DNA from: Halichondria panicea
Taxonomy: Eukaryota; Porifera; Demospongiae; Suberitida; Halichondriidae
DNA length: 64,000 nucleotides
Direction of reading: 5' to 3'
Assembly (NCBI RefSeq): GCF_963675165.1
Contig: NC_087383.1
Coordinates: forward strand, 4,432,979-4,496,978
Shown: piece by piece, positions 14,191-52,700 of the stretch
Numbering within the stretch: position 1 is the stretch's first letter
Layout of the letters: every line of letters begins with the position of its first letter
Made by a program: the position numbers and the translations under genes
The notes under the pieces: model-generated
Database searches by the model: none
Told to the model about the DNA's origin: nothing
The model's input: the letters and a program-made list of their open reading frames with translations, nothing else

Positions 14191-15639
14191 GATTAGGTCT
14201 TAACATTCGATTTACTACTAAAATTTCTACTAAGAAAATGCAGTTCACACCCACTAGTAGAATAGATGATTGGAACGTTCGTTTCTGTGCTCCTTCGTAC
14301 AACAAATCCACTGTATGTGTGTGTGTATGCATTGTGTTGTTGCATGCTTACTAACATTGTATACTGAGTTACTAACCCACATCAGGCCATATGCATTACA
14401 TAATTATGTAGGACTGTAGCAACAAGCATTCCTTCAAAAATTGCTCTTCTGCATGTCTTATTATAGGGACAATGTATTGTTAACGCTCACCTAAAATTGG
14501 TCCAAAACTCTGTCCGATAGCGTTTACACAGTTAATATATAGTGCCAATCACAAGTTCCTGCCATTTGGAAAATTAGATACACACTCATCAGTATAACCT
14601 TACTTCAAGGTGACATATTTTCACATGTAGATATTTCTCGATTTTACTTAAAATGTTCTGGTATATATTTAGAACTGAAACGTTTGTAACTACTCGCGTT
14701 TTGTTTTTTAGCACAACATTTTGCTCTCATTTGCAGACATTTATACCCGCAAAAACATGTCACACTACAGTCAATCGTATAAAATATTAGGTGCATATAC
14801 GTTAAAGATTGAACGTACCTCGATACCTTTGGGTGTCTGATTGTTTGCAAGTGCTAGTATGGGAACCCACATAAATGGATTAGATAACACCAAAATTGCC
14901 ATGCCAAGTACAAATGGTGTGAATAGTAGGGTACGGTGCTTTCCTCCGGTCCGAGCTTGATATCTGATTTGCATTGGTGGCTGCTAGAACAGCAGCTGAC
15001 ACTTTTCCAACTTGATTCACCACGAAAAAAAATATGAATAAGATAACTAGAGCAATTCCCCAAGCTATGTTAAACCAGGCAATTGATCGATACTGCTCAA
15101 TAGGAAGATGAGAAAAGGTAACACCCACACCTGTAAAAAAAACGGTACAATCAGCAATTTTATTTATTATACACCTATAGATTTACCTGTGCCAATTACG
15201 AATGCAATACCGTACCCAACTGTATGAAGAGTATAGAGAAAATTGCGAACTTCGACAGCTTTAGTCTTGTCACAATCAAAGGTTTCTCCGCTGTCTTTTA
15301 GTAGCTCCACATACATAACACTCATATTAGTGGCGTAGTTAAAACCCAAAGTAACTTCAGCACCCAGATAAAACCATACCAGAAGTATCGTTGGCAAGAG
15401 CACCCATCCTTGCGTAGCAGTACCGTACAGCAAAAATTAAGCCGAGAATATGAGTGCAAAGGAAGAAGATGAACTGATAATGGGACCCATTTGATGAGAA
15501 TCAGATAGTTCCACCTGCATGCATGGAAAGCATAAATAGAGTCTATATAGTGTGGCCCCCTAAAGAATTGAATGTACTAATGGAATCAAGCATTCCCACC
15601 TTCTAATGTGTAATAATAATACAAAAAAATGTGGATTAT

Positions 15640-15843
15640 CCGATAGCGCAACATTTTCGCTATATATTTGCTATTTTCGTGGGTTTGTGCCACGAAAATT
15701 GTTCAGAATTATATGCTATAACGTAAATATTAAAGGCGTGGTTTCTGGTAAGCAGTCAACCCACGACATTTATTCAACGAAATGCTTTAAATTAGAGGCC
15801 GATCCACGACATTTAAGTGCCTCAAAAATTTCATGCTATACGA
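15640..15843. mobile_element. MITE with ATAGCG...CGCTAT-type ends, copy 1
   Basis: CCGATAGCGCAACATTTTCG at the left and an inverted version at the right (AAATTTCATGCTATACG) flank an interior that matches 34342-34543 (CAGTCAAC.CACGA, TTAAAGGCGTGG). It lies in an intron of the copy B pseudogene. Confidence 0.6.
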
Positions 15844-16264
15844 TATATATCCTTACACTTTGACCCTTGCCCTGCATAATTATTGTTCAATAACAACATT
15901 CAATTTTTTTTGAGTAAAACTGCTTTGTTCACAGCTATATAAGCTCTGACAAAAGATGAATCAACAATGCAATTCATTAAAATAATACTGGTATATCTCC
16001 TCCCGTACAATAAATACAGTCATTCTTCTGTCAATTGTGTTCTGTTAATTAAATTGTACAATCAAGATCTTCATCAGTAGAACATTCAGTCACCCCGTGC
16101 GTTGAGCTTCATCGCACAACGGCAAAATAGATACGATAACTTTATTACCTTATAACATCGGGAATAGGGAATCGGGAATGATCGTGAATCATAAAGCAAC
16201 GATAATCGATTAAAAAAACAGTGTTTTTTGTTGCCTTTGAATTTCCAACAAGTTTCATCTACAT

Positions 16265-16445
16265 AATATCCGGGGAGCAATTCGTGGTTTTCGTGGTTGA
16301 ATACTGGACCACGAATTTTTTACCCACGAACGTATACTGCAGTGCAAGGGGGGCGCATCATCACGAAAATAGGATCCACAAACAATATTGTTCCACCACA
16401 AATATTTTGCCCCCCCTCCCTGAAAATTACCCGCTATACAACCGT
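16265..16445. mobile_element. MITE fragment with TTCGTGGTTGAA / CCACGAATTTTTTACCC motifs
   Basis: Inverted stretches of GGGxAATTTTCGTGG type flank this segment. The interior (ACCACGAATxTTTTACCCAC, CTGCAGTGCAAG, ATCCACAAA) matches 25461-25690. No coding capacity. Confidence 0.55.
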
Positions 16446-17221
16446 TACAGATAATAATCAGTACTAATTTGTGTTATGACTGGTAGCAACACTTCCCAGA
16501 AATTGCACATGCTGGATTGCGCAGTTCCTGATATACATCAGGTCAGTGCTACAAACCACAGACCACAGTTTACTCAACAACACTCGAAATGTGACGACAG
16601 CGAATACGTTCCAGCAGTTCAACACTCTTACTCTTCAATCACTGTATCATTAGCATTCCAGGAAATTTGCTCCTCACAGATATCATAAACTAACTAAGTA
16701 TCTAGCTCTTCGCTCAAACAGCTTATTTTTGTTTCCACACACACGCACACACTTAAACTGACACACATGCACACTAATCACTCCACCCTTGCTGCGCGCT
16801 ACGCACGCACCGGTTTGTATATCTCTGTCAACACAAGCATACAACTCCAAATTTATTTTGTAGAGAAGTATAGATCTCACAATATCCTCTTCTATACTCT
16901 CAAGACAAATTACCGTCCTCTATAACTGCAGGCTAAGTATACCTTAAATTATGTACATGTTTGAACACTCCATTTTAAGATGTATGTTTCGTAAATCAAT
17001 GGAAAATCATACCTCACTGATGCTATGGATGCTTGTTCCATTCATGTTCTCTTCCCTGGGATTGGTGACAAATCTGTGGCATGATGACAAATGGGCTGTG
17101 GTGCTGACAGAGTAAAGTATTGGAGTTAAAATCTGTGTGAGGACAGCGTTGATTCTCAATCGCCACAGCTCTTTCTTCTTCACTCTGTCGGCAGTCATAC
17201 CCATAGTACTAAGACACAGAT

Positions 17222-20147
17222 CATAAGAATCCTTTGGCAATAGTGATTTGCTGCTACTTTGACACTTATAAAGTTAGGAGAAGATTATTATTCAATTATT
17301 ATAATGCATAGGCTTGCTGATAGCTTGAACCTGTGTATTGACAGTAATACTTTGTGAGCATGCAGTCTATAGACTTATATTGCTATGCTAAGAATTTACT
17401 ACGATTTAGCACCATAGATCTACTATCAAATTGCGATACCATCCCACTGTATAATTATAGATCATAACAGAAAAGTCAATGATTCGTATCCACAGGGCCA
17501 GGACTCACAAAAAACAAAATGCTCATACACAAGTTATACGATTTCCAGTACCAATATTTAAATATTGGCCCGTACTGGAGTGATATAAAGCCTAAGGGCT
17601 GCATGCCCGGGGGCATGCATTTATTACATTGCTTCAGTGGAAATTTTGGGACATGATTATTGCACGAGGGCCGGCCCATGCATGCAATAACTATTTTGTG
17701 GTATGGCAAAATTATCCTTGTATTCTTGCAGTGCATTATAATTATGTCATTAGTTACAACATGGCAATGACTTGTGGCAAACTTGTTTGGAGCTATACGT
17801 AGCTTAGAGCACACAACTCAATTTTAAAGTGCCATACTGAGACTGATACAGTGCCTACTTAGAGCCTTTGGCATACTGACAGTGCCATATGTCAGTGCTA
17901 TGCATGTAGCAATCAAAATAATACTGGCATACTGAAGCTTTCATCTTTTACCCGGTATGGTTGCCATGGTTTTGTGTTGTTGTGTAAACTGTTGTAGTTA
18001 GTGCTGTGGAGTGAATAATTGATCATCATTCTTGGCACCATTTTCATCTGTCAATGTATATTGATTGTACACTGTAGTCTAGAGAGGATACACAGCACCG
18101 ATCTCTAATCAGACCTTAGCTAACCCTAACCTCATTCGTTTTCCACGCCTACTCAGTATAATCCGGTTGCCCTGTATCCGACTTCCATGGATGCATGTAT
18201 AGAGCTTCACAAGTACATGTATAATGAGTGCACCGGTCGCTGTCATGTCTGCGTTGCTGCATGTGTCTAAATGTAGACAAGCAAATGGAATGTATATAGC
18301 ACCATTCTAGATGGAGTTGTTGGCAACCACTCCCTGATTTCACCTGCATAATTGTATATCTATGATGAAAAGTTGTCCTTGCACTACCATAATAGTGACT
18401 TAAATTTTTTGTCATCATCAGTATAATTAGGAGCTCTTAATTGTTATTACAATAGAGATAAATAAATTCTCATATAGCTTTGATCATCAAAATAATACCT
18501 GGGAGTCAGCTGATCTATAAAACAATTCCAGAATGATATAGTATTAAACTGTGTATTGTATGTGATAGTATTAAACTATTCCTCATTATTAGTTGTACAA
18601 AATTAATGGCTAAGAGTGCTATTAATATTGCAATGAGTATAACCAACAGAACTGGTTGCTATTGATTTTTAATCGTAGTTCTCTGCAGTTTTTATTAATC
18701 TTTTCGGCCTTAGCCGTGGCCGTTCTTTGAACAATACTGGACAGATATAAATTGCCAAATGATGTCCGACATGATCACATGATCCAGTTTTTAATTACAT
18801 TCCTGTTACATTGTTACATTCATTTTCCCATGTAAATAAAATTATGTTGTTTGATAGTGCTTATCAAAATAAAATCATGCTACAAAACTTGAAGACATAA
18901 TAATTTGGCTCTAGACCTTTCATATATTCGATAGGTATCGGGGTGAACTGACGAGATATTCCTGACTATTTACTTTTGTCACTGTGTTCAGCCAATTAGA
19001 GAAGCTACAAAAACTTTACACCTTGCTACTTGTACAATATTATATCTGTAGTGCTTGCTTTCTTCCGTCTGCATGTGATACCTAGAGTTTTCTAGTGCTA
19101 CGTCACTATCAATGATCTTGTGGTAACCACATGCGGTCTAGCCACTTGAGTTGCCACAAATATCGTGGCAAACGTTGCACGAGTCTCTACGGAGTTTGAC
19201 TAGTCTACTGTTCGCCTGCAACAGTGACGGCTTGCGAGTCTACATGTATACAGCAAACAGACTATAATTATACTGACAGGCCCAGATCTAGGGGTTGGGT
19301 TTCAGGGGTTGCAACCCCCCAAACACTCACTAAAACTAGCTCATCCTACACTTGTGTTGCTTGTGGCTAAATGAGCAATGCGGTTAACTTACAAGCTGTG
19401 AACTAGTATCTGTTGACATGAGTACAAGTCCAGGACACACTAAGTAGTAAAAAATACACAATAATTTTCCACATACCATTCACATGTATTATGTATACAT
19501 GTACATGACAAGGCACCTAGCTGTAGTAGACAGAATATAGATTTGTAAGTATACTTTGTGCACGTTTACTATGATGTCAATTTCAATTAAGTGGGCGTGA
19601 AAGGGGACGTGGTCAAACATTTTACGTGCGCGCGCTTTTGTTTTATAACCCCCCTATACATTTTTGGCTGGATCTGCCCATAATTATATACACTATATAA
19701 TCATATGATGTGTTATTAGCGACTGGAGAGTGTACAGCAATTAATCCCGTATCACATTGGATCTGGTCCAGTAATTGCACATTGGTCCAGAGGATGTACG
19801 ACAGGTAATTACGTTTACATTCCATAAAGAGCACTTAGCTTCGAATCTAAGTCGCCCTTTAGTTCAGTATAGATCCAGTACTGAATGTAGTTAGTTTATG
19901 ATATCTGTGCAATGATGTAGTATACCGACGTCACGAAAACCGCAGCCACTTAGCATCTTATCTGATATGCTGACTGTGCAACACGACTTTCTACACGGAG
20001 TTTGACCAGTCTACACTGTTCGCCGTGCAACAGTGACGGCTTGTGAGTCTACTATTATACATGTAGCAACGCTGCTTTATGCTTAATTGATAACATGCAT
20101 GTTGTATATATAATATTACGAGTTCCTTAGTTTTGTAATTCTATTTG
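17222..20147. other. Gene-free spacer between MFS copies B and C
   Basis: No convincing exons on either strand. It holds a GCATGCCCGGGGGCATGC palindrome at about 17602 and a diverged direct duplication of about 87 bp (19172-19258 and 19977-20063) around CTACGGAGTTTGACTAGTCT. The rest is AT-rich unique sequence. Confidence 0.5.
19172..20063. repeat. Direct duplication of about 87 bp, copies 800 bp apart
   Basis: GTTGCACGAGTCTCTACGGA at 19172 and its diverged counterpart at 19977 are followed by the shared GCAACAGTGACGGCTTG block and TGAGTCTAC. The copies differ by small substitutions and indels. Their function is unknown. Confidence 0.65.
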
Positions 20148-20167: not shown

Positions 20168-23100
20168 TCATGTGTTTAGATTCGGTCCTAACTTTCGATT
20201 TAATACTAAAATTTCTACTAAGAAAATACAGTGTATACTCGCTAGTAGAATAGATGATTGGAACGTTCGCTTCTGTGCTCCTTCGTACAATAAATCCACT
20301 GTATGTATGCATGTGCGTATTAATGTGAGCATTGTGTTGTGGTCGTGTGACGACTGTAATGTATGCATGCTGTGTTACTAAGTAACACGCATGTATATAG
20401 TAAGAAGCATTTTCATGTTTAATGTACACTCACTTAAAATTGGTCCAAAACTCTGTCCAATAGCATTCACACAGTTAATAGTGCCAATCACAATTTCCTG
20501 CCGTCGGAAATAATGGAATAACATGTGAAGTGTTGTAAATGTATACATTGCTATAGACTAACCTGTATGCTTTTGGGTGTCTGATTGGTTGCAAGCGCTA
20601 TTGTGGGAACCCACATAAATGGATTAGATAACACCAAAATTGCCATGCCAAGTACAAATGGTGTGAATAGTAGGGTACGGTGCTTTCCTCTGCAAATCGG
20701 AGGACAGTCGACACATTTCTTGTGTGTGATAGTTGAGAACGGTATCCAATGACATTGTCCATCCAATGCGTTCATGCACGAATTGCTCGCTACATCATTA
20801 ACTTCGTCTGAAAGTACTGGTAGACTCTGAATTTCCTTTTCTGGCATGTGTGCAACTGTTGTACTCTCATACTGGTTACTGTTGTGAATATTAACGCAAA
20901 GTAACTGCTGTTGCAAGGTGCAAGATAAAGTTAGTGGATTTTCAATGCTGCCAGTTTTAGGGAAAAAATTGTCAGCACCAGTAAGTGTGAGACACGGTGG
21001 GCTGTCGGAAATGATACCAACGCTCAGCCTATTTTCATTGCATATATGAGGACAGCTTGTACTTTTCTGACAAACTAGACTTAGGCTATTCGAAGTTTTT
21101 GTCGAAAATATTTCACCATCATCGAAGTGAAGATCAATTTCAGAATAAGTTATGAAAGATATGGGAAGTGATGAATGTGTGTTGGGGAGGAATAATTGAG
21201 TTCCATTACTGTGAGCATAGATGCTACCATTTCGGATCAGTTCTGGGTGATGGAATGGACTGTACTCTGTGCATTGGTCATACGGAATGGCCTGCCAGTC
21301 TGACACAAGCAGGTAGCCAGCTATCGACACTAAAAGACCAACAACCATGATCATTTGAGTATTCAGCTTCATCTTCTGTATAATTATCCTACAAATGAAT
21401 ATAGGGGTACCAATTAAGTATTATAATTATTGAGCATGATCATTATGTGGCTCAGTTGTTTGAAGTGTCCGACTCTTTCTTAATTATACTGACTGTTAAT
21501 CTATTATAGGCTACATCTGATGTGTATTCACTCACAGTAAAACTGCTCCTAGAATTCGAGGAACAGCTAACCCCAAGTAGAAGTAGGAAGACACGCCCAT
21601 AGACAGACCAAACGAATCACTGAGAACTGGATTCAACAGAGTGTTCACATAGGCCCACTTTATCATTTCAACGAAAGAAAGAATGTGTAAACTGATAAGG
21701 ATGTGGGAATGACTGTTAAGGGCAGACAGTGCATATAATTATACAATAACATTCATCCATGCATGCATGCATGTACGCACATTCAACTCTAAGCTATATC
21801 AACCAGGATATGAATATTTGAAGAAGTCCTCGCTTGATATCTGATTTGTTCTTAAGTCCGAGCTTGATATCTGATTTGTTCTTAAGTCCGAGCTTGATAT
21901 CTGATTTGTTCTTAAGTCCGAGCTTGATATCTGATTTGTTCTTAAGTCCGAGCTTGATATCTGATTTGCTCTTAGTGCATTGGTGGCTGCTAGAACAGTG
22001 GCTGACACCTTTCCAACTCGATTCACCACGAAAAAGAAATATAAATAAGATAACTAGAGCAATTCCGCACGCTATGTTGAACCAGGCAATTGATTGATAC
22101 TGCTCAATAGGAAGATGAGAAAAGATAACACCCACAACTGCAAAAAAAGAGGTTACAATCAGCACCTTAATTGTATAAATTATATAGATCTACCTGTGCC
22201 AATTACGAATCCAGTACTGTACCCAACTGTATGAAGGGCATAGAGAAGATTGCGAACTTCGACAGCTTTAGTCTTGTCACAATCAAAGGTTTCTCCGCTG
22301 TCTTTTAGTAGCTCCACATACATAACACTCATATTAGTGGCGTAGTTAAAACCCAAAGTAACTTCAGCACCCAGAAAAAACCCTACCAGAAGCATCGCTG
22401 GCAAGAGTACCCATCCTTGTGTAGCAGTACCATACAGCACGAAGCCAAGAATATGAGTGCAAAGGAAAAATATGAACTGATACCAATATGGGACCCATTT
22501 GATGAGAATGGCTGATAAGAATCCTCCAATGATGGAGCTGAATTGTAGGGAACCGATAACCAAAGAGTAGAATAACTCTGATTTTCCCAGTCCAGGTTCC
22601 ACCTGTATAACGTGTATAGATCTACACTATAGGTATATAGTGTTGCCATCTATAGAAGGGCTAAAAATGAATTAGGTATCCACCCTTATGATAACATCTT
22701 TCAAGGCAAGAAACCTAAATGCATAAAGGTATCTATAATAATTATTATCAGGAGTACATAAAGAGGATCAGGAGTATAACTCCCACGCACATTCCATTCT
22801 ACATCTAGGATTGAATCCCATCACTAACACTTGTACCGGTAGTTGTGTAAACTGTTAGCCATGAATAAAATGTGGGCTAGCAGTACAAACTACACGTGTG
22901 TGTGCTGATACCGTATTACTAGAATATTTTGCGGGTGGAAAAAACCTTTGCGAATGAGCCAAATCAGCAGAAAATTTGACCTTTGCGATCAACTATTGAT
23001 TGATCAACTATTGCGTTCTGGCAAGGTAATAATTTAGATTTTGCGGATTTTATTGTTGCGAATTGATCAACCATCGCAAAGTTCGCAAATGTTTGATGCT

Positions 23101-23621
23101 TGCAAAACATTCTAGTAATACGGTATCATTTTAAACTAATTAACCACTACACCTATGCACCCACTTAAGATGCGGTCTGATAGTGACGTGGTATGACATA
23201 CTCGTACCGTAACGTGGTTTACACTACAACTGCATGCTACAGTTGGATACTCCTCTTTATATACTCCTGATATTATTATATAGAAGTAAGAGACATGTGA
23301 AATAGATATCCACCCTTTTAATTATGGTATTAACATCTATCAAGGCAAGAAACCTTGCATGCAGGCCAGGCTACATGTATATATAGAGTAAGAGACATAC
23401 ATGATCACCATTTCGTAAATCCAGGATAATCATACCTTATTGATGCTTGTTCCATTGATGTTCTCTTCCCTGGGATTGGTGACAAATCTGTGGCATGATG
23501 ATAAATATGCTGTGGTGCTGATGGAGTACAGTATTGAAGTTAAAATCTGTGTGAGGACAGCGTTGATTCTCAATCGCCACAGCTCTTTCTTCTTGTTCAC
23601 TTTGTCACCAGTCATACCCAT
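20168..23621 (-). CDS. MFS transporter of the CLN7/MFSD8 type, tandem copy C (intact)
   Basis: Seven exons: 23436-23621, 22194-22602, 21804-22137, 21536-21691, 20563-21388, 20434-20497 and 20168-20298. Their lengths sum to 2106 nt (701 aa from the ATG at 23621; a second ATG lies at 23615), and every junction is in phase with GT-AG ends. It shares with copy A the segments PGLG, VRNxLYxxHxxG, LPIEQYQSIAWFNIACG, NPVLSDSFGLS, SDWQAIPYDQCTEYSPFHHP and CVDCPPICRGKHRTL. The helix pattern suggests an MFS fold with a large lumenal loop in the C-half, resembling lysosomal CLN7/MFSD8; the transport substrate cannot be told. The central loop between the two halves carries a 30-bp in-frame tandem repeat (SDIKLGLKNK units). 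It is the only clearly intact member of the three. Confidence 0.82.
21829..21974. repeat. 30-bp coding minisatellite in MFS copy C
   Basis: About 4.8 copies of a 30-bp unit (CGAGCTTGATATCTGATTTG plus TTCTTAAGTC). The first four are essentially identical and the outer edges are degenerate. The unit length is a multiple of three, so it encodes a 10-residue repeat (SDIKLGLKNK) in the cytoplasmic linker of the transporter. Copy A lacks it, and copy B retains one partial unit at its deletion junction. Confidence 0.95.
22749..23269. mobile_element. MITE with CAGGAGTA...TACTCCTG ends, interrupted by a second MITE
   Basis: Outer ends CAGGAGTACATAAAGAGGA and CTCTTTATATACTCCTG are inverted repeats. 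The interior corresponds to the reverse complement of 10766-11064, except that 22911-23123 is extra. It lies in intron 1 of MFS copy C. Confidence 0.8.
22911..23123. mobile_element. 213-bp MITE, ends CCGTATTACTAGAATATTTTGC, inserted at TA
   Basis: The ends CCGTATTACTAGAATATTTT and AACATTCTAGTAATACGG are inverted repeats, flanked by TA at 22909-22910 and 23124-23125. The uninterrupted host element at 10766-11064 (reverse complement) reads GCTGATATCATTT across this point, with one TA, so a TA target duplication is shown directly. A second copy lies at 42184-42394 inside TP53BP1 intron 5. The TA target suggests Tc1/mariner-type mobilisation. Confidence 0.9.
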
Positions 23622-25460
23622 TATATCTATAATTATGACACAGATGACAGCGAGTATCAAATAGTTAAATTGTATAATTATAGCTATAGTTTGATAGATC
23701 TAGCTCTGCGATCTTTGTCAGTCAACATTAGTGATACTATAATTATATAGATCTCAGTATCCACTGTAACAACTCAATAATGGAATAGATCTATAGGCTA
23801 TAGCTATAGACTTGCAGGCATTGCTGATACTATAATTATACTAAGCTTGAAACATGATGGTATTGACAGCACTTAGGTCCAGTGTTGCTATACCAGTTAA
23901 GTAATTGTTATAGATCTTAGGTTACTGGTATGCTAACAATTTTACTATCAATTATGACATGCATAATCTTAGCACCATAATTAGCTAATGTGATGCAATC
24001 TGAGAATTAAGGGACCACTCTAAAAAAGATAACACCTCTGCATGGGAGGCTAGGACCCTGGCAGTCGAATTCCTTCAAAGGAAGAAACAATTTTGCGAAG
24101 GAATGTCTGGACGAAAATTAAATCATAAATCATAATAATAATATCCTCTGGAGCCACTCAGGATCAGCCATAATTATACATGCATGCATGTACATGAATT
24201 TCAAGGAAATATGTCTGATTGTAAGGAAATAATTATTATGGTTGATCCTGAGTGTTTCTTGATATTGGAATTATGATTATTAAACCCCTTTACCTTCCAT
24301 CATGACTCGATTTTGAGTCAAACGCGTGTGCCCAGCACAAAATTGATTAAATTCACAGGGAAAATATTAAATTTCCTGCTACAGTGCTGCTACAGTGCAG
24401 CCCTTAAAATCTGCACATTTCCTGAAAAATGGCAGGTGTCCTGCAACCTATATACTTACAAAGGATAGTGCAATGTTTCCTGTATAGTTTCCTTTATTAT
24501 TCCTGAAGAAATTCAGGACATGTGTAAGATTCATAAAGGAAAGTCTACAGGACATTTTGCACTATCCTGAATTAAAGTATAGGAAATTTAGATACTTTTC
24601 CTGTGATTGTCACATGCATGTATAGTAAAGCGTAATTTTCGCCCGTGTTTTGGCATGTCCCCCGCCGAAAGGTATATGGGAGGATCTTAAGGGGGGGGGG
24701 CGCAAAACCTTGTACTTCGAGACTGTCGAAAACTGTCAAGAATTTTCAGCACGTTCCGACCATTAATTTCAAAAGGGGAGGGGATATAATAATTAACGTT
24801 TGACAAGGGTTCTGGATGTGTCTGGTTGCATGGGTTGGGTTACCAATGTGAAAAAAGGGGCCAAAATTGAGGGCCAGTGGGTGCGCAGAAATCTACACGT
24901 GAATCGGGCGAGGTGCGAGAATAATTACTTCGCAGCTGGTAAAAGTAATGGTTAATGTTTGTGATCATGATCTGTGACTGTATGTGGTGAACTGCATGAT
25001 GACATAATTATTGTATCACACCACTATAGCCTCCCTGCCATTGCAATTGACTCAATATTCATAAATACCTGACAAACATTTGCAGGATTGACCAAGAAAG
25101 AACATACCAAAGCGTACAAAAAAGTGACAAGAGAGACTTGTCACAACGTCATTAACCCATGCAGCCTCAGGTGTACGTAAACAATGAACTTTTTACAGAA
25201 ATTGTCGATTGATTCCACCTCTACACTATAAACGACTGTGAAAAAGAAAAAGAAAATTTCTCGAGGGACAGGCATGAGCGGGAAGATCAAGGGGCTGTCA
25301 ACAAAGTGAAATCTTCAACTTAAAATCAAGCATTCGTACGACATTGCTTCGATAGGTATACTATGTGGTTCTGCATGCATGCATGGAGACATACTACGAG
25401 TATAACTCTGCATCAGCCATGTGATCCATTACCAACAATTGTTATACCATATAAATACCG
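23622..25460. other. Gene-free stretch between MFS copy C and TP53BP1
   Basis: I see no exons. An inverted repeat (CACTCAGGATCAGCCATAAT at about 24155 against ATTATGGTTGATCCTGAGTG at about 24236) marks a small hairpin element of about 100 bp. A run of short TTTCCTG/CAGGAAA repeats lies at 24360-24600 and a G10 run at about 24693. Confidence 0.5.
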
Positions 25461-37700: not shown

Positions 37701-40700
37701 CCGGCCTGCTTCTGGAACCAAGGTGTCCGGATAATCGAGGTTCTACTGTACCATACCCAAGTTTTTACTATCAAAATGTAGCTTTTAGAATACTCTGTTA
37801 AGTGTGCTTAACACAAACATATAACTCGTACAGTAGGGGGGGAGTTACAAGGTATGTTTCAAAATGACTTGGGTACATTTTTCTTACTGGATACACAATT
37901 GAAACAAAATTAAAATTCCTCACAATTTACCACATAGAGTACTATCTAGATTATTTTTTACACCACCACAACTGTCAAAGATAAAAATCACAAATCAGAA
38001 CTATTTTGTTCCGTGATTTTTATCTCGGAAAGTTGTGGTGTAAAAATAATAATCGTTTACCGTGGACAAGAATACCGTGGCCACTACCTCATGCCCAGCT
38101 CCAAGATATAGACTCTAAACACTCTGTTGGGTATGGCATCGGTGCAACCCTGTCACTGCTATCAAGTGAACTGTAATTCATACATTTGTAGATAGTACTT
38201 GTCTATGGTTGTGGTAAATTGTGAGGAATTTTAATTTTGTTTCAATTGGGTATCCAGTAAGAAAAATGTACCCAAGTCTTTTTGAAACATACCTTGTAAC
38301 TTCCCCTCTACTGTACGAGTTATAATATTATGTTTGTGTTAAGCACACTTAACAGAGTATTCCAAAAGCTACATTTTGATGGTAAAAACTTGGGTATGGT
38401 ATAAACACTTCTGACGTTTTGGCAGGATTAGTGAAACATATATTTATGGTCCATTCCCCCCTTAAGATGCTTTGCACTATAATAATGTCAACTAAATAAT
38501 GATGCACATGCATTCATCTTTCTATAATTATAACTTACATTTCTGCGCTCAATGTTTGCAAAGCTAGTGGAACCTCAAAACTCCCCAGACTTTCTTCTTG
38601 GGTCCGCTGAGAGTGAATCTGTGTGCGCCTGCATAAAGGCGTAAAGTTTTAAGAGCAAACATGTAGATTAGAAATGATAGTTATAGACCCCAACACAATG
38701 ATAGCCAGGGAAGCACGTCATGCTGTGTACATGTAGCTCACCTATTAGCTCTGATCTTCTCAATATCTCCCCCACTGCTGGAGCTGCGGGTGGTCGTAGT
38801 TGAGGAGGAGGTTTCATTCGATAGCTGCTTCTTACATATCTTGTACAGTCCGAGGAGTCTATATAGGAGGTGCATATGGGAAATGGGTTGGGAAAGTACA
38901 TGCACAAGGTTTATTATGGTGAGCACTAGCAAATGGTTTGATAATAACTTTCCTCACTGGTAAGTGGCAGCCAACACAAGTATACGTATTGTGATTCATC
39001 AAAATTAATTACACGTACCCAGGGAGGGCAGTAGTGACATCGTCTTCATAGGGGGTGGAGCTAACGAGGGGCAGGGTTTGGGGTACAGTAGCCTGACTTC
39101 CGTCCACACTACAGGAGCTGCCAGAACTGGGTGTGGCTTTATCAGAGCCACTGCTCGTGGTTTGGGTTCCTGGGTACTCAGTGCTGGCATCAGTCTCCGC
39201 CCCCCAAGAGGGAGGGGCTGTAAGAGGACAATGCAAAAAAGGTAGTTCATGGAAAGCTAATGTATTACTCTCGTAGGGAAATTCCTTTTGATGAAAATCA
39301 CTTGAAATTAAGTCATAAAAACAATGGCTACTTAATCTTACACACTCAACAGGGTCTGACAACACTCCTAAATCCAAGCATACCATGTCTAGTATACAAT
39401 TTTGTAAATGCAGACACCTAATTTTATACCGGCAGTAATGACTGGTGGTGGTTCGATGTCTTGTGTCTCTTCATCAGTAGTGGAGTCATCAGAGAGAGTC
39501 TCATCCCTTCTCGTCTCATCCTCCTCTGGACTAGGCGTGGTGGGAGCTCTAGTGACCTCAACCGTTGAGGGCATAGTTTTGTGCTGGGTCTGGACTGCAT
39601 ACAAACACAATGTTTATACTAGTTAATCTGTGAATGCATTTTTCAGACGCAAACAATTTCAAGCATTTTCGTCCCCGCATGTTTGTACAATTTAGTTTTA
39701 AAATTATAAGCTTCAACAAAACCTGTGTAGTTTTCAAGTGCAACACATGTGATACTTTTAAAGAAAAACAGATGGTGTCAATTAAAGCTGCGTATAGTTC
39801 TCAAAGAAAACCAATACCCAACCAACATGCTTGGGCAGGGTTTAAGTGTGGGTTGGCGGGTGATTTTTCATTCGCTTGGAGTTAGTAAGTTTCCTACTTA
39901 CAACTGTAAATCACCCGCTTGTACAAAATCCAAATATCATCATGCAGTAACACTTACCACTCTTTTTCTTGGGGACACGCCGCCCACTCTCACTGGAGGA
40001 GAGACCAGACTCGCTGGCACCTGTCACCACCACTATCTGGTTGTCTGCATGAGGGTGGAGCTAGGTGTTACATGACGGACTTATATGTACATAATAATTA
40101 TTACAATATCAAAGATTCTCACAAAGAGTACACTATTGGTAACTACGAAAAGGAACCTGATAGTAATGACGAACAATGTATGCGACAACTGTGTGTGAGT
40201 GTTACAACACAATTGTCCAGTTAAGGCTACGTCTATAATGCTGCATTGTGAGCCTGCAATCATACGATCATCAGCATGATCTACTCATGTGATAAGTAAC
40301 TAACTAATACAGCTAGACATAAATACTGAGTGAAGAATTGTGCAATAACTTTTGTTCGAGAACTGCAACGTTAATTGCTGCAATGACTTACACCACGAAC
40401 CCTAAGCTGTTTGTGCTTCAAGCCATCACCTTTGCAGTGCTTTTCACCATTCTTGGCAGCTTGACCTTCACTGTCTGGAATCAAGGGAGAGAAATCCAAA
40501 CTCTGCGTGAAGAGGTTCAGACGTCGAAACTCAACACAGAAGAAGTTTCTATCTCCTCTATCATTGGATCACTCAATCGAAACAGAAGAGATGCTTCCCA
40601 GAGTTCTATAGACATTCTAGCTAATGCACTGACTGATATTATCGAAAAGAAACTCTACTCTATTATAGATTGCAACAGAAACGAGAACAATGGGACGGAC

Positions 40701-43700
40701 TGCACACTCAAACCAGGACCAAAGGGTGAAAAGGGGAACAACGGTGAACAAGGCAAAGAAGGACCTCGAGGAGTCCACGGAGACCCTGGTGTGACAGGCA
40801 TTAAAGGACAGCTCGGTTACCCTGGATACAAAGGAGAAATAGGGCCTCAAGGTTCTAACAGCACACGAGGCCCTAAAGGAGATACTGGAGCAGGACTTAA
40901 AGGAGACATGGGGCCAACTGGAGTTCAAGGAACTCCCGGAGAAATCGGAGGACGAGGCCAACCCGGTGTGAAAGGAGACAAAGGAGAACTTGGTGCTCAA
41001 GGTATCAACGGTAGTGTCGGTCCATTGGGGCCAGTTGGACGAAATGGCGCTGTGGGAGTTAATTAAAGGACAACCTGGTAATACTGGAAACAAGGGGGAG
41101 AAAGGAATGACTGGATCACAAGGCCCCCCTGGACCAAAGGGCAGTACTACCTCAAGTGACTTCATAAAGATTGGAATCTTAAGCAATCCAGCAACATCAT
41201 GCGGTGCACTATACGCTAGCAATTATCAGTCTGACAACTATTGGATAACAGGGGCTAACAACCAGCCAGTGAATGTGTACTGTAATATGGAGAGATCGTG
41301 TTGCAGTAATGGAGCGAGAGGCTGGATGAAGGTGGCTGATGTTGACATGACTGACTCTAACCAACAGTGCCCAAATGGATTCAAACTGAATAGCAGGACA
41401 ACAGCACCACTGCGTACGTGTGGTAGACCTGACAGAGGATGTGTGTCAACAACATTTCCAGTAAATGGAGTTCAATACTCTCGTGTGTGTGGGAGAATTG
41501 TTGCATATCAAGTTGGCTCACCTAGCGCATTTGGTTTTATTACGACTAACAATCCCATCAATGGCATTATTCTCACCCACGGGGAGTCCTCTAGACAGCA
41601 TATTTGGTCTTTTGTGAATGGAGCAAGGGAAACTTACGGCAGTTCAGAAAGATGTCCCTGTAGCGGCGGCTCCAGGACTGCACCATCATTCATTGGACAG
41701 GACTACTTCTGTGACTCAGCTGTTAGAGGTAGCAATGTAACTGATGGTGTGTTGTACCCTGGCGATCCACTCTGGGACGGTCAAGGATGTGGGAGTACCA
41801 GTACTTGCTGTGCGTTCAACAACCCACCGTGGTTCTGCAAGCAACTACCTCAGCCGACAACAGATGATATTGAGTTGAGGCTTTGTGAAAACAGTCCACC
41901 AAGTAATGATGACTCACCTTTTGAGATTGTAGAAATATATGTACGAATAGACAAATTTTAGAGCTAGATAATCGTCCTGTTTGTTACGCATGTCATAACA
42001 CGCATGCGTACGAACTATGGTACACTGGTGTGAAGATTATACAATAAATTATTTTAATTGTCTCATGCAGGGCTTACATTACTGCAAGTACCTCAAAGAT
42101 ATGTAGAGGTTATAATTATTATTACTTATGCATGGCTAAAAATTAATAACCTACGAACTGCATGCAGTTGCTGTAACTAGGAACCGGCAGAATGTTTTGC
42201 GAGCATCAAACATTTGCGAACTTTGCGAGGGTTGATCAATTCGCAACAATTAAATCCGCAAAACCTAAATTATTACTAGTAAATACACATGATCCTTTCC
42301 AGAACGCAATAGTTAGATCGCAAAGGGTCAAATTTTCTGCTGATTTGGCTCACTCGCAAAGGTTTTTCACTCGCAAAATATTCTAGTAATACGGTAGCAA
42401 GCACATCTCCTAACTGAACAGTGGTTCTGACTTTACCAGGGTTCAGCGACAGAAACAATAATTATCTTCTAATGTAGGTCTAAATTTAGACTTTGAATTA
42501 GAAAAGCGCTACTCACAGAGTTATTGTGGGGAACACACGACATTGAAAACCAATGACAAAAAGATCGGGATGCGATTAGAAGAGAGATAACGAGACGCAC
42601 GTCGTACCTCCGCTAGACAATGGAGTCCAGGAATGTTATTAATTAAGCGTGGTGTCTGACCTCTGACCTCTTGTGAATCAGCAGTTGCTACGTAGTACAC
42701 ATTAATTAAGCTGTGCCAAATAATTATCATAAAAACACCGTGTGACCGGAAGTGGGTGTAACTCCAAACATTTTCGCGCTGTATGCGACTTTCACTACTA
42801 GTGTTGCGCGCTCGTTAGTTTGGAACCTCCCTTTCATTTTTCCTGTATCTGCCACTGACAAACACTTTCGAACACTTGAGACTAATCACTGCTACATACA
42901 GTCTTAGCTAGAATGCATGGCCATAATTATAGCTGTTTACTATTTTCTAAATCTACGCTGTGGACAAGTAAAGTTTAATCACAACAAACACTTTCGGACA
43001 CTTCAGACTACTACACCCCATACATCAGACACGATTGAACATGGTGATACTTACTTCGTAGTGATTTAATTGTAAAGTCAATGAAGTATCGTTTGTCAGT
43101 TGGTTAGTGGATGGAGAAGACGTTAGACGTCTGAGAACTGAAGGTTTCACGGAGAACAGCATACTGTTTAATGCTACACTAGTACCAGAGTTTCATCTCA
43201 GATCCAAAATTTGGGGGTTACATGTACGTGCGCCGCCAAAATGTTTGGCTACGCCCACTTTTGTTGATTACGTACTTAACGCATCACAGTAGATCTACCT
43301 TATAGTCAACATAATATTATTAACCAAAGTATGATGTCTAGTACTAATGTGACAATGTCATTATTCCTACAAAATGTTTGGGGAGGAAGGTTTACTCCTG
43401 CCCCCCCCCCCCCACTAGCCTGGCTACACTGCTACTAAGCGAGCATTTTCATAGTGGGATGGCCTTACAGTGTTGCAGGAATGGCAAAACTTGCTCAGAA
43501 AAGCTACAATCAAGTAAAATAAACATGTCAGTGTGTACCTGGACACAATATAAAAGCCTTGAACATGACTTTCCTGAGGAAGGCTGTTATAATCAAGATG
43601 GTGAATCACCAAACGAAAACAGTAAAGACAGTGGACAAGGACATTTGCAAGTATTGGTACAACAATTTTGATAGCATACAGTTTGGCTTTGTATATCATT

Positions 43701-46700
43701 CGGTAACATATTCAAACATAATTATCAGAATAATTACGCATGCTAACTCTGTACCTGTATGCAATAAACTATTATGATACATCACTAGAGGTTAATACAA
43801 CCATGTGCCCAATAGAAACACTGTATACAAGGGCCAGATATCCAGGGTTTTTCTGAGCAATCTTCATCATTGGGAAACGACATTCAAAGGCATGAGGCAT
43901 GTGCTGCTGCTGCAACATGCATAATCAATGAAGGGATTTTGTAATGGATAGAGTCAAGCTAAATCAATGATGTAAAAACAGACTTAGTCACCAAAGATAC
44001 ATGTATATGCATGTATAGGATATACCACACCTAAGAGGAGGATATATAGGGTGCATATCCTCCGAGTAGGTGTGGCATATCTGACTTATACCACGTGACC
44101 GCAGCACTATAAAAGGACCTCCCCCTAGCAACAATTCAATCCACGATGCAGACTACAAAAAAGAACAAGACTATGCCGGATTTTGCAGCCGTCAAAGAGC
44201 TAGTTGAGCAACATGTTGACTCCTACAGATGCTCAAGAGCTTCCTTGGTCCAAGCGTTGACCATTCGACGTCCCCTACTGGAGTTGCAAGCTCTTCTTGG
44301 ATAAAATGTATCTATACCGCGCCCATGGAAGCTTAGCCATCTTGTTGGAGAGCACCTTCCGTGTTTCTGCCGTCGCTTTGAGTCTTAGTACTGTCAAGCA
44401 TGGCTCTTTTCTTTTTGCTTACTTTCTTGAACAATGAAAAAACTAAAAAACAACTTGAAAAACTGTGCATGCCTGGGGCTGTATGCTAATATTCTATATA
44501 TCCTACAGCTGTTGACCAATGAGATCAATTAGTGGTGACGTAAGTGTGGTATAAATACCTATGTCCCATGTATACGTGTGTATACGTGTACTACAGTAGG
44601 CCAAGCAAACCTAAGCTGTTTGTATTTCAAGCCATCACTTTTGCAGTGCTTTTCACCATTCTTGGCAGCTTGACCTTCACTGTCTGGAATCAAGGGAGAG
44701 AAATCCAAACTCTGCGTAAAGAAGTTCAGACTTTGAAACTCAACACAGAAGAAGTTTCTATCTCCTCTATCATTGGATCACTCAATCGAGACAGAAGAGA
44801 TACTTCCCAGAGTTCTATAGATATTCTAGCTAATGCACTGACCGAGGTTATCGACAAGAAGCTCTACTCTATTATAGATTGCAACAGAAACGAGAACAAT
44901 GGGACGGACTGCACACTTAAACCAGGACCAAAGGGTGAAAAGGGGAACAACGGTGAACAAGGCAAAGAAGGATCTCAAGGGATCCACGGAGACCCAGGTG
45001 TGACAGGCATTAAAGGACAGCTCGGTTACCCTGGATACAAAGGAGAAATAGGGCCTCAGGGTTCTGAAGGCAGAAGAGGCCCTAAAGGAGACATTGGAGC
45101 AGGACTTAAAGGAGACATTGGTCCAATTGGAATTCCCGGAGAAATGGGAGGACGAGGTCAACCCGGTGTGAAAGGAGACAAAGGAGAACTTGGTGCTCAA
45201 GGTATCAACGGTAGTGTTGGTCCAGTTGGACAAAATGGCACTGTGGGAGCTAAAGGACAACTTGGTAATCCTGGAAACAAGGGGGAGAAGGGAACAAGAG
45301 GCCCTCCAGGACCAAAAGGCCAACCAGAAGTAAATAGTACCATAGATGTAGGAGAGAGGGATTGGAAACGGAAGTAGATTTCAATGTACTTCACATATGA
45401 CCTCGATAAACATCCGCGCCTCGCTTAATGAGGGCTAATCTATTCCCCAGGAACTTCGCGGGTAACTGAGATTATTGCAAATCTAGGATTTTATGAGTTG
45501 TCACTAGTATTCTGTCAAGTTTTCCAGTATCCAGTGCAACTGTGCTTTATATAGATAGTGAATAACCACTATTTAAGCTCTATTTACCGTTGCAACTATC
45601 TTCTTCATTGAATTTAGGTAAGTTTAATCTTGTATTGTACACATTTATCCCTTTTTCTCTGAAATGATTAATGTTTAGGTCGTATACTTCAATATGCTTG
45701 TTGGTAAATCATGTGGTATCACCCCAAGCCAAAGAAAATTAGTCATACATCAGCTGGTAGAATTTAGTGCTAGAAAAACGTTGAATTAAAGAGCACCACT
45801 AAAGATCCCTTTTTTGGGAATACGCTAAGCGTTACAGAAATTTTAATTTTAGGCATACATTCCCTTATGATTGGTGATCACCCCAAGAGCATTAGTTTTG
45901 AATCAGGTGGATGTATAGCTTTTGTGTGCATGAATGTGTAGTCACCTATTTTTACCTCATAATTGTTATTGGGCCAGTAGTAGATTGTGGTGAAGGGCCT
46001 GTAGGCCCGAGATATTTAACTACTACAAATGCTGTTTCATCTATATTTTATATAGCAATACCTCGCAAGCCAAAACTTACTGAGTACGCTGAAGAAAAGA
46101 AGACAGAAGAATACCCCTCCTCTCTACATCCCTACACGTCACCGCCCTCGTAAATGTTATCGGCTGTTCCGGCTATATATACACCCTTGTATACCTCACC
46201 AGCTTCTCTCCATCTAAGACTGTCTGATTAGAGTGCTAAACTAATCATAATTATAGCTGTAATAATCATTTTTATCGTGTAAGTTTTTGTTAATGTTGTT
46301 CGGTTTGATCCCACTCGTTTTACACTTAGAAAGCAACTGGCAGTGCTGTGGAGTGTTTTGCTGTCTCCAAGTGTATGTAATTATACTTAATGAATTGGAA
46401 ATTGAAATGTACGCTCACCATGCAGCCTATATAGTATATATAGAAACTTCGTACAATTGATTCATCAAAAGTGAAAACAATTATTAAGAAAGTTACATGG
46501 TATATTATGTATCTTGTCGTATGAATGATCATGGTTATTGCCTCAAACTAGTGGACTTCTTGATGGTTTTCTTTTTCATTTAATTAAGTTGGCAGCAAAA
46601 GAGAAGCCTCTGACAGTCACAAATACATTCACAATTTCAGGGAGCTAAGCATCCTCTGATGATTTTATATCTACTGTGAAACAAGTATCCAATACCACTA

Positions 46701-49700
46701 GCTCTGCACATGCTCCTTACTATTACCATGTACCAATGCACTGTTGATTGTGTCTCTTTCCCTCTTCTTTCACCGCTTATGCAATGAGTTTTCCTCATTT
46801 GAGGCAAGAAAAGAAGACAAGAAAGCGAGGCGCGGATGTTTTCCGAGGCCCACTTCCGTTTCCAATCCCTCTCTCCTACATCTATGATAGTACCTGCAAT
46901 GACCTAGCTGATACGCACAAATTTGGAAGTTTTAGCAATCCAGCTACATCATGCGGTGAACGAAGCAAGAGAAGTTCAAGAAGAGAAGACAGGACTGGAA
47001 TTCAGTTGCTTCTTGATGTTCCTCATAGGTATTTCACTTTCATTATTGAGAAAAGAAGGCCGGTGAAAGAGGCTAACTCCTCAATTCCCTGAGTGAAGTG
47101 CGGCCTGGGATCGAGACTATTGAAGAGTATAATATAATTCTGTCCAACGACCACTTATATATTATCTTCAACAAAATTACAGGACGATGACAAATTAATC
47201 AACGTCACATTAATTTTATCTTACCATTAATGTACTACTGTATGAAAAAAGAAAGGGAATCAAAACTAAAAAACATTTGCAATGTGAACGTTGCTAGGAT
47301 TGCCAGGAAAAGAAAAGCGCGAAAAAGCGAAGAAACAAGAAATTCGGCGAGTGCATAACTCTAATCCGTTACAACGTCATGAACATGTACAGTCGAGTGG
47401 CCTACTGTTGATAAGGAATTTTAAAATCGAAATACAGGTTGGGTAAGTACACAGTCATTGGTCTTTATCTGCTGGTCATGAATAACTTGGAATACTTCCA
47501 CCCACACATCCAACACTTGCGTGTTTGCTCAACACTGTAATGGAGTCATAAACATGTAACTATAGCCTGCAAAAAATGCACATAATTAACATCACTATAA
47601 TTATTACTTGCAATGTGAAAGGATTGGCCAGGAAAAGTACCAAAACAAAAATAATAATTATAACTTATTGAAACAGTACATGTGAATGACGTTGTAACGG
47701 ATTGGAGTTATGTACTCGCCGAATTTCTTGTTTCTTCGCTTTTTCGCGCTTTTCTTTTCCTGGCAATCCTAGCAACGTTCACATTGCAAATGTTTTTTAG
47801 TTTTGATTGAGTTAAGGCTTTGTGAAAACACTACACCAAGTAATGATGACTCACCTTTTGAGATTGTAGAAATATACGTACATTGAATAGATGGAGCTTT
47901 TAGAGCTAGAAAATTAATTTTCACATGCATTTCATGTGAGTATGAATTATAATTATGGTACACCGGTGAACAATGTAGTCTCAGCGCATAACGTACTGCA
48001 CGTAGCTCAAAGATACAATAATGAAAGCATTGTATCAAGGTGTTACAGTAGAGTTCTCGTTAATCCGGGGACAGAAGTTTGGCGGCGGCTTTCAACTGTA
48101 GATAATATGCGGGCCTACTACAAGTCCAATAGCTGGATAATGAATCATTAATTTTATGTTCTCTATTCGAATCATTGGCCAAACCACACCCAAAACGTCA
48201 TATCTGGCCGTATTATACGTATAACAGTAAATTAAGAATCTGGTCTGTGGCTGTCAGAAGTGACCAGTACACAGAACAGCAAGGTGGCCGCATTTCAGAG
48301 CAAGTTTGTGCACAGTAATGATCTATATAGCAATCATTGCCAAATGAAACGGCCGAGGTGCCGTAATTCAGAAGAAAGGATAGCGAGAGTCTACTGTATA
48401 CCGTATATATTTCGAGGGTATATATTTTTGCAGAAATGCCTTTAGAAAGGTTTTCGCGGATTTATTTTCTTGGAATAGTAGCCTTTTTGCAGCATGCACG
48501 CATGCGAATTTAATTCGCGGTACATGCTTAATCCGCGTAAACCATGAACATTTATACCCTCGAAATATACCCGCTATACGATAGCCAAACCCTATAACGA
48601 GGAGTGTTTCAAGCAACTATTTTTGTTTTGTTTCCAATCCCTTTTACTGTTCTATCTATGGTTCGGGATACTCTTTGGGCTTCTAAATCATGTATATAGA
48701 AACTTCCTAAACAGTGTCTAACTATTATTTATATACGTGTACTAGTTTTTGAACTTTTTATCACGTCTATTCTAAGGATTCAGCTCGTAAAATGCTTAAA
48801 ACAGTAAGTGACCTTAGGAGTAAAGGTCAATCTTTTCAGATCTCCTAGTTTATACTTTCATGACCAGGCAATGTAGTCTAGGAATGCCGATTAGTCAAAG
48901 GTGGTGTCCAGCCTCTTCTGAACCATTATTCATTATAAGCTGTGCGAAATATATTCATCCAAGGGAATACCCAGGGAAGATTTGCAAAAAACTGCGTGTA
49001 TAGCACACAGATGAAGTGCTGGAGAATTAGCTAGATCATTACAGCCTGCGTGACTAATATAGTGCATTACAGCCTAACTAGAATGGCCATAGTTAGCTTT
49101 CTCCATAAATTTTTTAGACCAAATCTACGTTGTGAGTAAAGAGTTACACTATATACAGTAAACTGTGGCACTCTATAGTTACTGTACCCAAAGAAGGAAT
49201 GAAGTCTATAGTCATGCTGAAAATAATGCTAGTGAGTTTATTCGCTGCTCACGTGGCAAGTTCCCCCATTCCAGAACTAGACATCAGGTCACAATCGGAA
49301 CCAAGTTCGGAAACTTCAGACTACTACACTCCATACATCACAGACACGGTTGAACATGGTGATACGTACTTTGTAGTGACTTGTCAAGCCAATAAAGTAT
49401 CGTTTGTCAGTTGGTTAGTGGATGGAGAGGACGTTAGACGTCTGAGAACTGAAGGTTTCACGGAGAACAGTACGCTGTTTAATGCTACACTGCACAGTTA
49501 CTTAAGAATACCACGGAAACATTTTCATTGTGGGATGGCTTTACAGTGTTGCGGGGATGGCACAACTTGCTCAGAAAAGCTACAATCAGGTAAGATAAAC
49601 ATGTCAATGTGTACGTGCACACAATACACGCATATGAATTTCCCAGGGAAACTATTGGAAGGCTGTGAGGAACAAGACGGTGAATTACTCAAAGACAGTG

Positions 49701-52700
49701 CACTAGGGGGCTTTGCAAGTGTTGCTACTACAACTTTGATAGCAGTTTTGGCCGCTTTGTATATCATGTACATGTAGTCATAATCGGTACACAAACATGA
49801 CTGTAATAATCAAAATCTGTGTGCTAACTCGCCGTATGTAATGCATGGCTAATTGCCTACAATTATAGATATGTACATGCTGAATACTCTTGACTGCATG
49901 CGTAATACAGGGGGATGGGATAACCAGGTTTTTTTTCTAGGCCATGGGGAAACGATATTCAAAGGGTGAAAGGCATGAGCTGTTGCAACTTGAGTACTGG
50001 ATAGAGTCAAGCTAAACATGTTTTACCTACATGTACTGATGTAAGACAAATATCACACAACACATTAGTATCTGAGATGCATGGAAGTGCATTACATCAG
50101 GCCAACCATGGCTGCTACCACCCACACAACATTCACATACCCGGTACACAATTTAAACATAGCTCAAGCAGAGTTTTCGTTAAAAGGGCATTAAGGGGCA
50201 TGACGCCCTGCTTCAATTATTGGGCACCCTCTTAACGCCCCCTTATATTGACCACATGTAGCTCTAACATTTTTTTTAAGGTGGCTAAAAGACCCAATTC
50301 TGTTCCAAGTCAACATGAGTCCAGTAGTGAAGCTGCTATTGAACACACTGCTACTAAAGTAAGTCTGATGTGAAGTACTGTGTTGAGGACTGAGGTACAG
50401 ATCCAGGTATTTCTCTCAGTCTGCTCATCATTGTGCTTTGTCAGCTTATCAAATCCCCCCCCCCCTGAGCTGGGGTATGTAATCACTGACCTAGTGCTTT
50501 AGAGGCTCTGGAGTGAGTGGAAAGGGTGCTCTCAGGGACTCCACTAGTAATTCTGTGCTCCATTTTGAGTTTGGCAGCTCTCAGGGAGGCAGCCTTTCCC
50601 TCATCAGAACTCCGACTGCTCTCTGTGCCTGTGTGGGGGTTACAGTGAACACAGTATTACCCTGCTCTGTGTGGAGCGTCACAATGAACACACTATTGCC
50701 CTACTCTGTGTGGGGGGTCACAGTGAACACACTATTGCCCTACTCTGTGTGGGGGGTCACAGTGAACACATTATTGCCCTACTCTGTAAGAACAGTTTTT
50801 TCTTTACAGTGAGCTGTTTAGAGGTGCTGTACATTCTAACGATTTAATTAAGAAAAGCAATAGAATCAGTGCACTGTCGAGGTACACCTATCTTTATAAC
50901 TAATTTTAGAGTACGTGTTACCCAGCTGACCATGATCACAGTACGTGACTCACCTGGCACCACAGGTGTTCCCTTGAGCCTGTCCCTGAGGCGCTTGATG
51001 CGACGGTTGGCCCTTTGAGTTAGCTCATTACTGTAGGGGGGAAGGGCTGGCTGGTCTGTAGAGGGGTAATAAACACACAATCTATAATGAACAAGCTACC
51101 ATATACACAATGTACGTGTAGCATAATTTTTGGCCAAACCGCAAACATTTCAACCATTAAACATTTGTAACAGCTACATGTAGCTAGTGTACATAATATT
51201 AATGTCAGACCACTGGGCAAGAGGTGAGCACCAACCCATAAACCGATAACTTGGGCCTGGATACAAGGCAATGTAAAGCCACCACCCATTCAGTAGCGTG
51301 CATAGGCGTATGAAGCCATGCCACCTGAAAGGGTAACCTAAGAGGCTATGCCTCACCTAAAGATCACAAAGAGGGGGGAACCCCCTCACGCAATAAATGC
51401 TGTGCTCAAGCCCGAGCTGGTGGTGTGAGAAAAAGGGATACCTCCAGAGGCCCAGAGGTGAGAGGGGTGGGAAGGGGGGAAAGACGCTATTCACAGCTAT
51501 ACTTGCCGCTGTCCAACACGCGAATGACTACCACGCGGTAGGATCCCCTACTGTGCATGCGCAGCCACGCCTACTGGTATTAATCCCAAGAGTACTTGCC
51601 CCTGGCTGCCATTAACCATTGTTTTGTCCTCACACACAAAACCCACTCATTTGACGCGAAATGCCCAGAAATTGGCAATTCACAATGCGGCCCTCAAAAA
51701 ATTACTTGCAAACTCAGCATGAATACATTTTGTCAGTGTCATGGATACCTTGACTGCCGCTGTCAGATTGTGATGCAGGAGTCACCGTTTCCTCATTGCC
51801 TCGTAGAGGATAGCTCCTCCCACCTAAAGCAATACAAATATCAGTAAAATGATTAATTTATCAACCTCAACTTAGGTATAAGATTCCCTGTTGCACATGT
51901 CAACACAATCCATCGACACAAATGCAGAGGTTCAAAATACAAGCAATGATCAGTCGTTAAGACTTTACCTCCACCCCACTTACCAAACTGAAGGTCAGAG
52001 CTCCTCCCCTCCTCTGCTAAGACCCTGGCCAGTACTTCCCGCCCTTCCTTCTCCAGCTGACTCCGCCTCACGTCCTCCGCCATTTGTCGCTGTTCATCAG
52101 CACGGATTAGTGCTCGCATGTCAGGCGGGGTAAAGTCGTACCCTAGTGGGGGCCCAGGGGGGAGCGATTGGATAGAAGCATCTAAAATAATGTGATCAAT
52201 CAACAAGCATTAATACTAAAGATAGAGAATCGTTCTCAGAGTACCTCGTTCTCAGAGTACCATAAATCTTTTGGATAAAACTTGGCCAGTTTATCATGGA
52301 ACGATTGTTTTTAATTAAGCACACTTTTGTATATACATGTATAAGGTTTTTGTCTAAAGCACCAATTTATTTGCACGTACCTAGTATGGATATGGCAATA
52401 ACCACTGACTCTAAAACGTACCTACTGACTGGCTTTCCCCAAGTCCCAGTGATAAGTCATTTGATCCGGCCAAAATATCTTGTGAGAGTGGAATTTGAAA
52501 AATATTCGAATTGGTACTTCCACCTCCAGTAGCTCCGCTACTCCCTACAGTTGTGGGTGTGGCACCTCGTCTAACAGCAGCAGCTGGGCTTGCAGTAGGA
52601 CCAGTGATTTGTCCTCTGCCACCATCTCTATTAGTAACAGCAGATTGAATGGTTCTTGCACTGGCCTGTGTTTGAGCTGAAATACTATTTCCAGTTTGGG

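Follow-up and report, generated by a model that had tools for sequence, protein, structure and literature searches.

We analyzed a window of 64,000 nucleotides from the sponge Halichondria panicea (C7:4432979-4496978) and found a tandemly duplicated two-gene block on the plus strand, antisense to a predicted TP53BP1 gene and located in its predicted intron 5. Each unit of the block contains a membrane collagen-like gene followed by a gene for a small cysteine protein. We consider it likely, with considerable confidence, that a block of surface-protein genes was duplicated in the host intron and is now decaying, partly through transposon insertion; the locus looks like a case of mostly ordinary gene birth and decay. 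This interpretation is based on the in-phase host exons, the 53BP1-type BRCT domains of the host, the homology of the block including its flanks, a third collagen-like copy that has no partner, a large gene family with open members in tandem, and the origin of the insertions from repeat families. The host gene was modelled from splice sites and reading frame, with the following features (positions in the window).

53135-53095, 52954-52422, 52181-51984 and 51823-51749, minus strand: predicted exons 1 to 4 of TP53BP1
50954-51055, minus strand: predicted exon 5, bounded by an AG acceptor and a GT donor and in phase 1 on either side
40045-50953, minus strand: predicted intron 5, 10,909 bp between exons 5 and 6
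39958-40044, minus strand: predicted exon 6, with an AG acceptor and a GT donor, joined to exon 5 in phase 1
39594-39431, minus strand: predicted exon 7, with an AG acceptor; its end is provisional

The predicted model runs stop-free for 400 residues from an ATG at 53135 through seven exons, with AG before exons 2 to 7 and GT after exons 1 to 6. The predicted introns are, in order, 140, 240, 160, 693, 10,909 and 363 bp long, so that intron 5 contrasts with the remaining five (140-693 bp). The phase 1 junction in this stop-free model agrees with the original prediction that exons 5 and 6 join in phase across a 10.9-kb intron, and TP53BP1 would accordingly be spliced across it. Within intron 5, a 39-bp minisatellite of about 4 copies was also observed (50629-50787).

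The sequence matches make a good case for the proposed identity of the host as TP53BP1. Its 3' part matched the Pfam families BRCT_3 (34.0 bits, cut-off 26.1) and BRCT (24.5 bits, cut-off 21.3) in separate exons. The top three solved-structure matches of one BRCT piece were all 53BP1 (E about 5e-07), and the best matches of the second piece were likewise 53BP1, but weak (E 0.15-0.17). Thus, both Pfam and the sequence matches to solved structures point to a tandem BRCT of the 53BP1 type. The Tudor region matched generic Tudor models only, with scores under their cut-offs; the 53BP1 Tudor family PF09038 gave no match in the host, but likewise none in its 14 controls. Exon 1 may also resemble the N-terminus of human 53BP1. 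The host model might instead be two genes, with exons 1 to 5 ending in a 3' exon of their own, exon 6 starting or belonging to another gene, and the block being intergenic. The frame of exon 5 does continue for about 35 codons beyond the donor to a stop at 50844, where TP53BP1 could end; the seven exons are nevertheless in phase and stop-free, and we regard an intergenic block as quite unlikely.

The features of the duplicated block are as follows.

40316-44012, plus strand: unit 1, about 3.7 kb, collinear with 44521-50092
44521-50092, plus strand: unit 2, collinear with unit 1
40383-41961, plus strand: collagen-like gene 1, broken, with a membrane segment, an RNRR site, Gly-X-Y repeats and a head domain (41134-41958)
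42979-43710, plus strand: remains of small gene 1, recognized by their match to small gene 2
44544-45341, plus strand: 5' part of collagen-like gene 2, broken, with head pieces at 46916-46976 and 47806-47914
45342-46885, plus strand: repeat element of 1,544 bp that ends in inverted repeats and has the direct repeat ATAGTACC on either side
47258-47808, plus strand: fold-back repeat element of 551 bp with arms of 136 nucleotides
49199-49777, plus strand: small gene 2, open, 192 residues, with both ends hydrophobic and eight cysteines

The duplicated blocks (within 40316-50092) lie wholly inside the predicted intron, of which they make up 85%, and their location is that of nested genes. Sensitive alignment of the two units gave collinear matches at 40316-41185/44521-45376, 41163-41224/46916-46976, 41869-42030/47806-47968, 42979-43180/49289-49491 and 43433-44012/49509-50092, along with four more rows that are off-register matches between collagen repeats. 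The matches take in both genes, the 3' flank of the collagen-like gene and about 300 bp beyond the small gene. Since they are collinear and include both genes and their flanks, we conclude that a tandem duplication copied a block of about 3.7 kb as a whole, which bears out the predicted antisense duplication. Identity between the units was 89.4% for the collagen gene (745 columns), and 90% (190 columns) and 73.7% (270 columns) for the small gene. It had also been noted that the offsets between the units, about 4.2 kb at the collagen gene and about 6.3 kb at the small gene, differ by close to the length of the two insertions in unit 2. These figures agree, but the agreement is partly coincidental, because unit 2 lacks about 660 bp of the collagen head and unit 1 carries additional sequence not shared with unit 2; the offset shifts in steps of +1574, +185, +376 and -237 along the block.

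Both collagen-like copies in the intron are broken, as predicted. Copy 1 has a single disruption, a frame shift with a stop at about 41060, whereas copy 2 is interrupted by the 1,544-bp and 551-bp elements and has lost most of its head domain (about 660 bp). Both insertions belong to repeat families. For the 1,544-bp element, at least 30 other copies spanned 1,500 or more of its 1,544 bases at 95-98% identity among the best 40 of 150 candidates; for the 551-bp element, at least 18 copies extended over more than 500 of its 551 bases, with 93-98% identity, among the best 40 of 719 candidates. The 1,544-bp element was compared with hAT-like elements, defined by an 8-bp target duplication and terminal inverted repeats: the inverted arms are present, and the repeat ATAGTACC on both sides is 7 or 8 bp long depending on where the ends are placed. 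In the spacer of unit 1, a further repeat (42189-42405) is 86% identical to 22901-23113 in inverted orientation and has inverted ends of its own; it is a probable small transposable element.

A third collagen-like copy, new in this analysis, lies inverted just beyond the end of the window (C7:4497740-4499263, minus strand) and is broken by several disruptions. Its identity with copy 1 is 90% over the N-terminal part and 78% over the head. Neither small gene matched its surroundings at E up to 1 (extended coordinates 54000-72021), and the third copy thus has no detectable small partner. In the N-terminal part, synonymous divergence (dS) was 0.108 between copies 1 and 2, 0.101 between 1 and 3, and 0.083 between 2 and 3, with ratios of nonsynonymous to synonymous divergence (dN/dS) of 0.46, 0.41 and 0.61, respectively; for the heads of copies 1 and 3, dS was 0.24 and dN/dS 0.38. 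Third codon positions accounted for 10 of the 15 differences private to copy 1 (p=0.009), 9 of 20 in copy 2 (p=0.19) and 4 of 15 in copy 3 (p=0.79). The predominance of third positions in copy 1, unlike copies 2 and 3, suggests that copy 1 was constrained until recently and died late, from few sites and with all compared copies broken.

The predicted protein of collagen copy 1 combines the N-terminal membrane segment and RNRR site with Gly-X-Y repeats that matched the collagen family PF01391 (60.7 and 71.4 bits, cut-off 27.2), and it is probably a trimeric type II membrane protein that carries a furin-like site and a cysteine-rich head. The head cysteines are largely invariant across 13 aligned members of the family. 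Against the fibrillar collagen C-terminal domain COLFI, the head scored under the cut-off (16.9 versus 26.2 bits; 16.0 in one relative), and no match to solved structures was found by sequence at E up to 1. Foldseek returned nothing at E up to 0.001 for a structure model of the head (predicted template modelling score 0.69; predicted local distance difference test score, pLDDT, 63). Structure comparison gave Z scores up to 6.9 for ficolins and up to 7.5 for other folds, and the weak matches were mixed, comprising Eph ligand-binding domains, carbohydrate-binding modules, ficolins, intelectins and a procollagen propeptide. A lectin-like head, and hence a membrane collagenous lectin, would be our guess.

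For the small gene, the analysis confirmed one dead and one open copy: small gene 1 has frame-changing gaps and about 235 extra bases (43181-43443), whereas the frame of small gene 2 is open. The small protein had no Pfam family above cut-off, no Ig-like (immunoglobulin-like) match in Pfam and no sequence match to solved structures at E up to 10, and its single-sequence structure model (pLDDT 43) was too poor for a structure search. By eye, the spacing of cysteine, tryptophan and cysteine led us to guess at an Ig-like fold. The protein is likely to be secreted and tethered through its tail, perhaps by a glycosylphosphatidylinositol anchor.

The number of living copies would be wrong if small gene 2, though open, were no living gene, or if the frame shift in collagen copy 1 came from an assembly error or belonged to a rare allele. 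There is a single assembly, collagen copy 1 has one lesion and private differences that look constrained, and the small gene is without a Pfam family. The stop-free runs in the intron are 329, 277, 247 and 213 codons long. When the bases of the intron were shuffled 1,000 times, no run of at least 213 codons arose (longest 211), although an earlier set of 200 shuffles reached 223, and the 213-codon frame alone is therefore not beyond chance. However, the small-gene frame is recognizable in unit 1, and dN/dS between the units was 0.30 for one piece (59 codons), but 0.77 for another (77 codons). A wrong count appears unlikely.

The two gene types differ in their distribution over the genome (131.46 Mb, 39 contigs). 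The search yielded at least 143 matches to the collagen head domain, 3 at this locus and 140 outside it, from scoring the best 140 of 220 candidates, with some genes giving two matches. This abundance of collagen-like genes fits a sponge genome. Family members were observed on contigs C5, C13, C15 and C17; of the loci that were read, some have collagen repeats, others have different stalks, and several form tandem arrays. Two 9.9-kb stretches of the C5 arrays contain four open collagen-like genes of 488-516 residues, the others being broken or cut, and in these stretches, the only ones read, no small partner was present among frames of at least 90 residues. The small protein gave four matches in the genome, all inside intron 5. 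A shorter query, searched at E up to 10, added one weak match on C2 (C2:101265-101483, E=0.049), and no listed collagen head match lies within 900 kb of it.

The C2 candidate (C2:101043-101537, minus strand) is an exon that would encode part of a predicted membrane protein with a single pass. It weakly recalls the pattern of the small gene, having a cysteine and a tryptophan followed by a CC pair, and has no Pfam family. It aligned to the small gene with E 6e-07 in a single pairwise comparison, and a genome search with it returned the small gene weakly (E=0.07). Seven of its other matches were read and showed, by eye, mostly membrane-tail similarity. A distant relationship between this exon and the small gene is possible.

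The original prediction had suggested that two surface genes travelling together have a linked function. In such a scenario, selection would keep the two genes together as a functional pair, for example a receptor with a partner protein acting in recognition or adhesion. Both do resemble genes for surface proteins, and they were copied jointly. Joint duplication, however, needs nothing but the adjacency of the two genes. A linked function is unsupported, because collagen heads are widespread (at least 140 outside the locus) and the small gene is intronic except for the one weak match; moreover, both intronic collagen partners are broken, yet one small gene is open. The lack of conserved pairing elsewhere had been named beforehand as refuting, and within this genome no second pair of collagen and small gene was found at the sensitivity used. 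The pairing is local within this genome, and we consider a functional pair very unlikely. It is also highly improbable that small gene 2 is the last gene left of a rapidly evolving, lineage-specific family of Ig-like surface proteins anchored by their tails, that it was born as the partner of a collagenous lectin-like receptor, and that the TP53BP1 intron keeps it alive while that partner has decayed.

Our preferred history, duplication of the block in the host intron followed by decay, would begin with an adjacent pair of single-exon surface-protein genes that came to sit antisense in intron 5 of TP53BP1, either by insertion or by growth of the intron around them. The block would then have doubled in tandem as one piece, with a collagen-only copy nearby in inverted orientation. 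The collagen-like protein would be a redundant member of a large family, and its copies would have been lost after the duplication by frame shifts and transposon insertions, while one small gene died. The surviving open small gene may be expressed, and TP53BP1 would simply splice the block out. Besides the open frame beyond exon 5, some observations weigh against this history. The spacer between the two genes (42031-42978) had no match between the units at E up to 0.01. Distances among the three collagen copies are almost equal and the closest pair is not the tandem pair, so that more than one order of duplications would fit. Finally, the weak C2 match lies outside the intron, and divergent relatives of the small gene could have escaped the search.

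Other features of the window lie on the minus strand. A multicopper oxidase gene at 11282-13603 matched Cu-oxidase, Cu-oxidase_2 and Cu-oxidase_3 above their cut-offs. Three similar multi-exon membrane-protein genes in tandem (6567-9872, 14774-17273 and 20554-23699) appear transporter-like by eye; four pieces of them had no Pfam family above cut-off. An open frame at 21797-22189 contains a 30-bp tandem repeat (21824-21974, 5 copies), and the membrane protein predicted there would have a repeat of 10 residues.

The locus provides a clear case of a nested block duplicating and decaying within a DNA-repair gene, where loss has advanced to different degrees among the copies. The surrounding family of collagen-like surface genes, candidate recognition or adhesion proteins, is probably more interesting than the nesting. 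Membrane collagens and collagenous lectins include the type XIII and XXIII collagens and the ficolins. The protein described here resembles them in its N-terminal membrane segment, RNRR site, Gly-X-Y repeats and cysteine-rich head, but differs in that the head scores under the fibrillar C-terminal cut-off and has no clear fold match. In literature on nested genes, sponge transmembrane collagens, sponge 53BP1 and collagenous lectins, covering few subscription journals, we recognized nothing on this locus.

The claim that such a nested cassette is undescribed was overstated, since nested genes are counted in thousands in some sponge annotations. The counts in one study are 2,432 for Aphrocallistes vastus, 3,358 for Amphimedon queenslandica and 5,032 for Sycon ciliatum; two further sponge annotations have 83 and 0, a contrast that the study ascribes largely to annotation method, and the nested share is usually 5-10% of genes (PMC10282587). 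The common feature with nested genes of sponges and other animals is the single-exon gene in a large host intron (PMC10282587), whereas here two genes are involved, which are duplicated in tandem and mostly broken. The LRRTM genes in alpha-catenin introns are likewise antisense cell-surface adhesion genes in a large intron, with nesting gained and lost (PMC3933685). In the model presented there, nested gene and host were duplicated into several pairs (PMC3933685), whereas here the nested block alone was duplicated, within one host.

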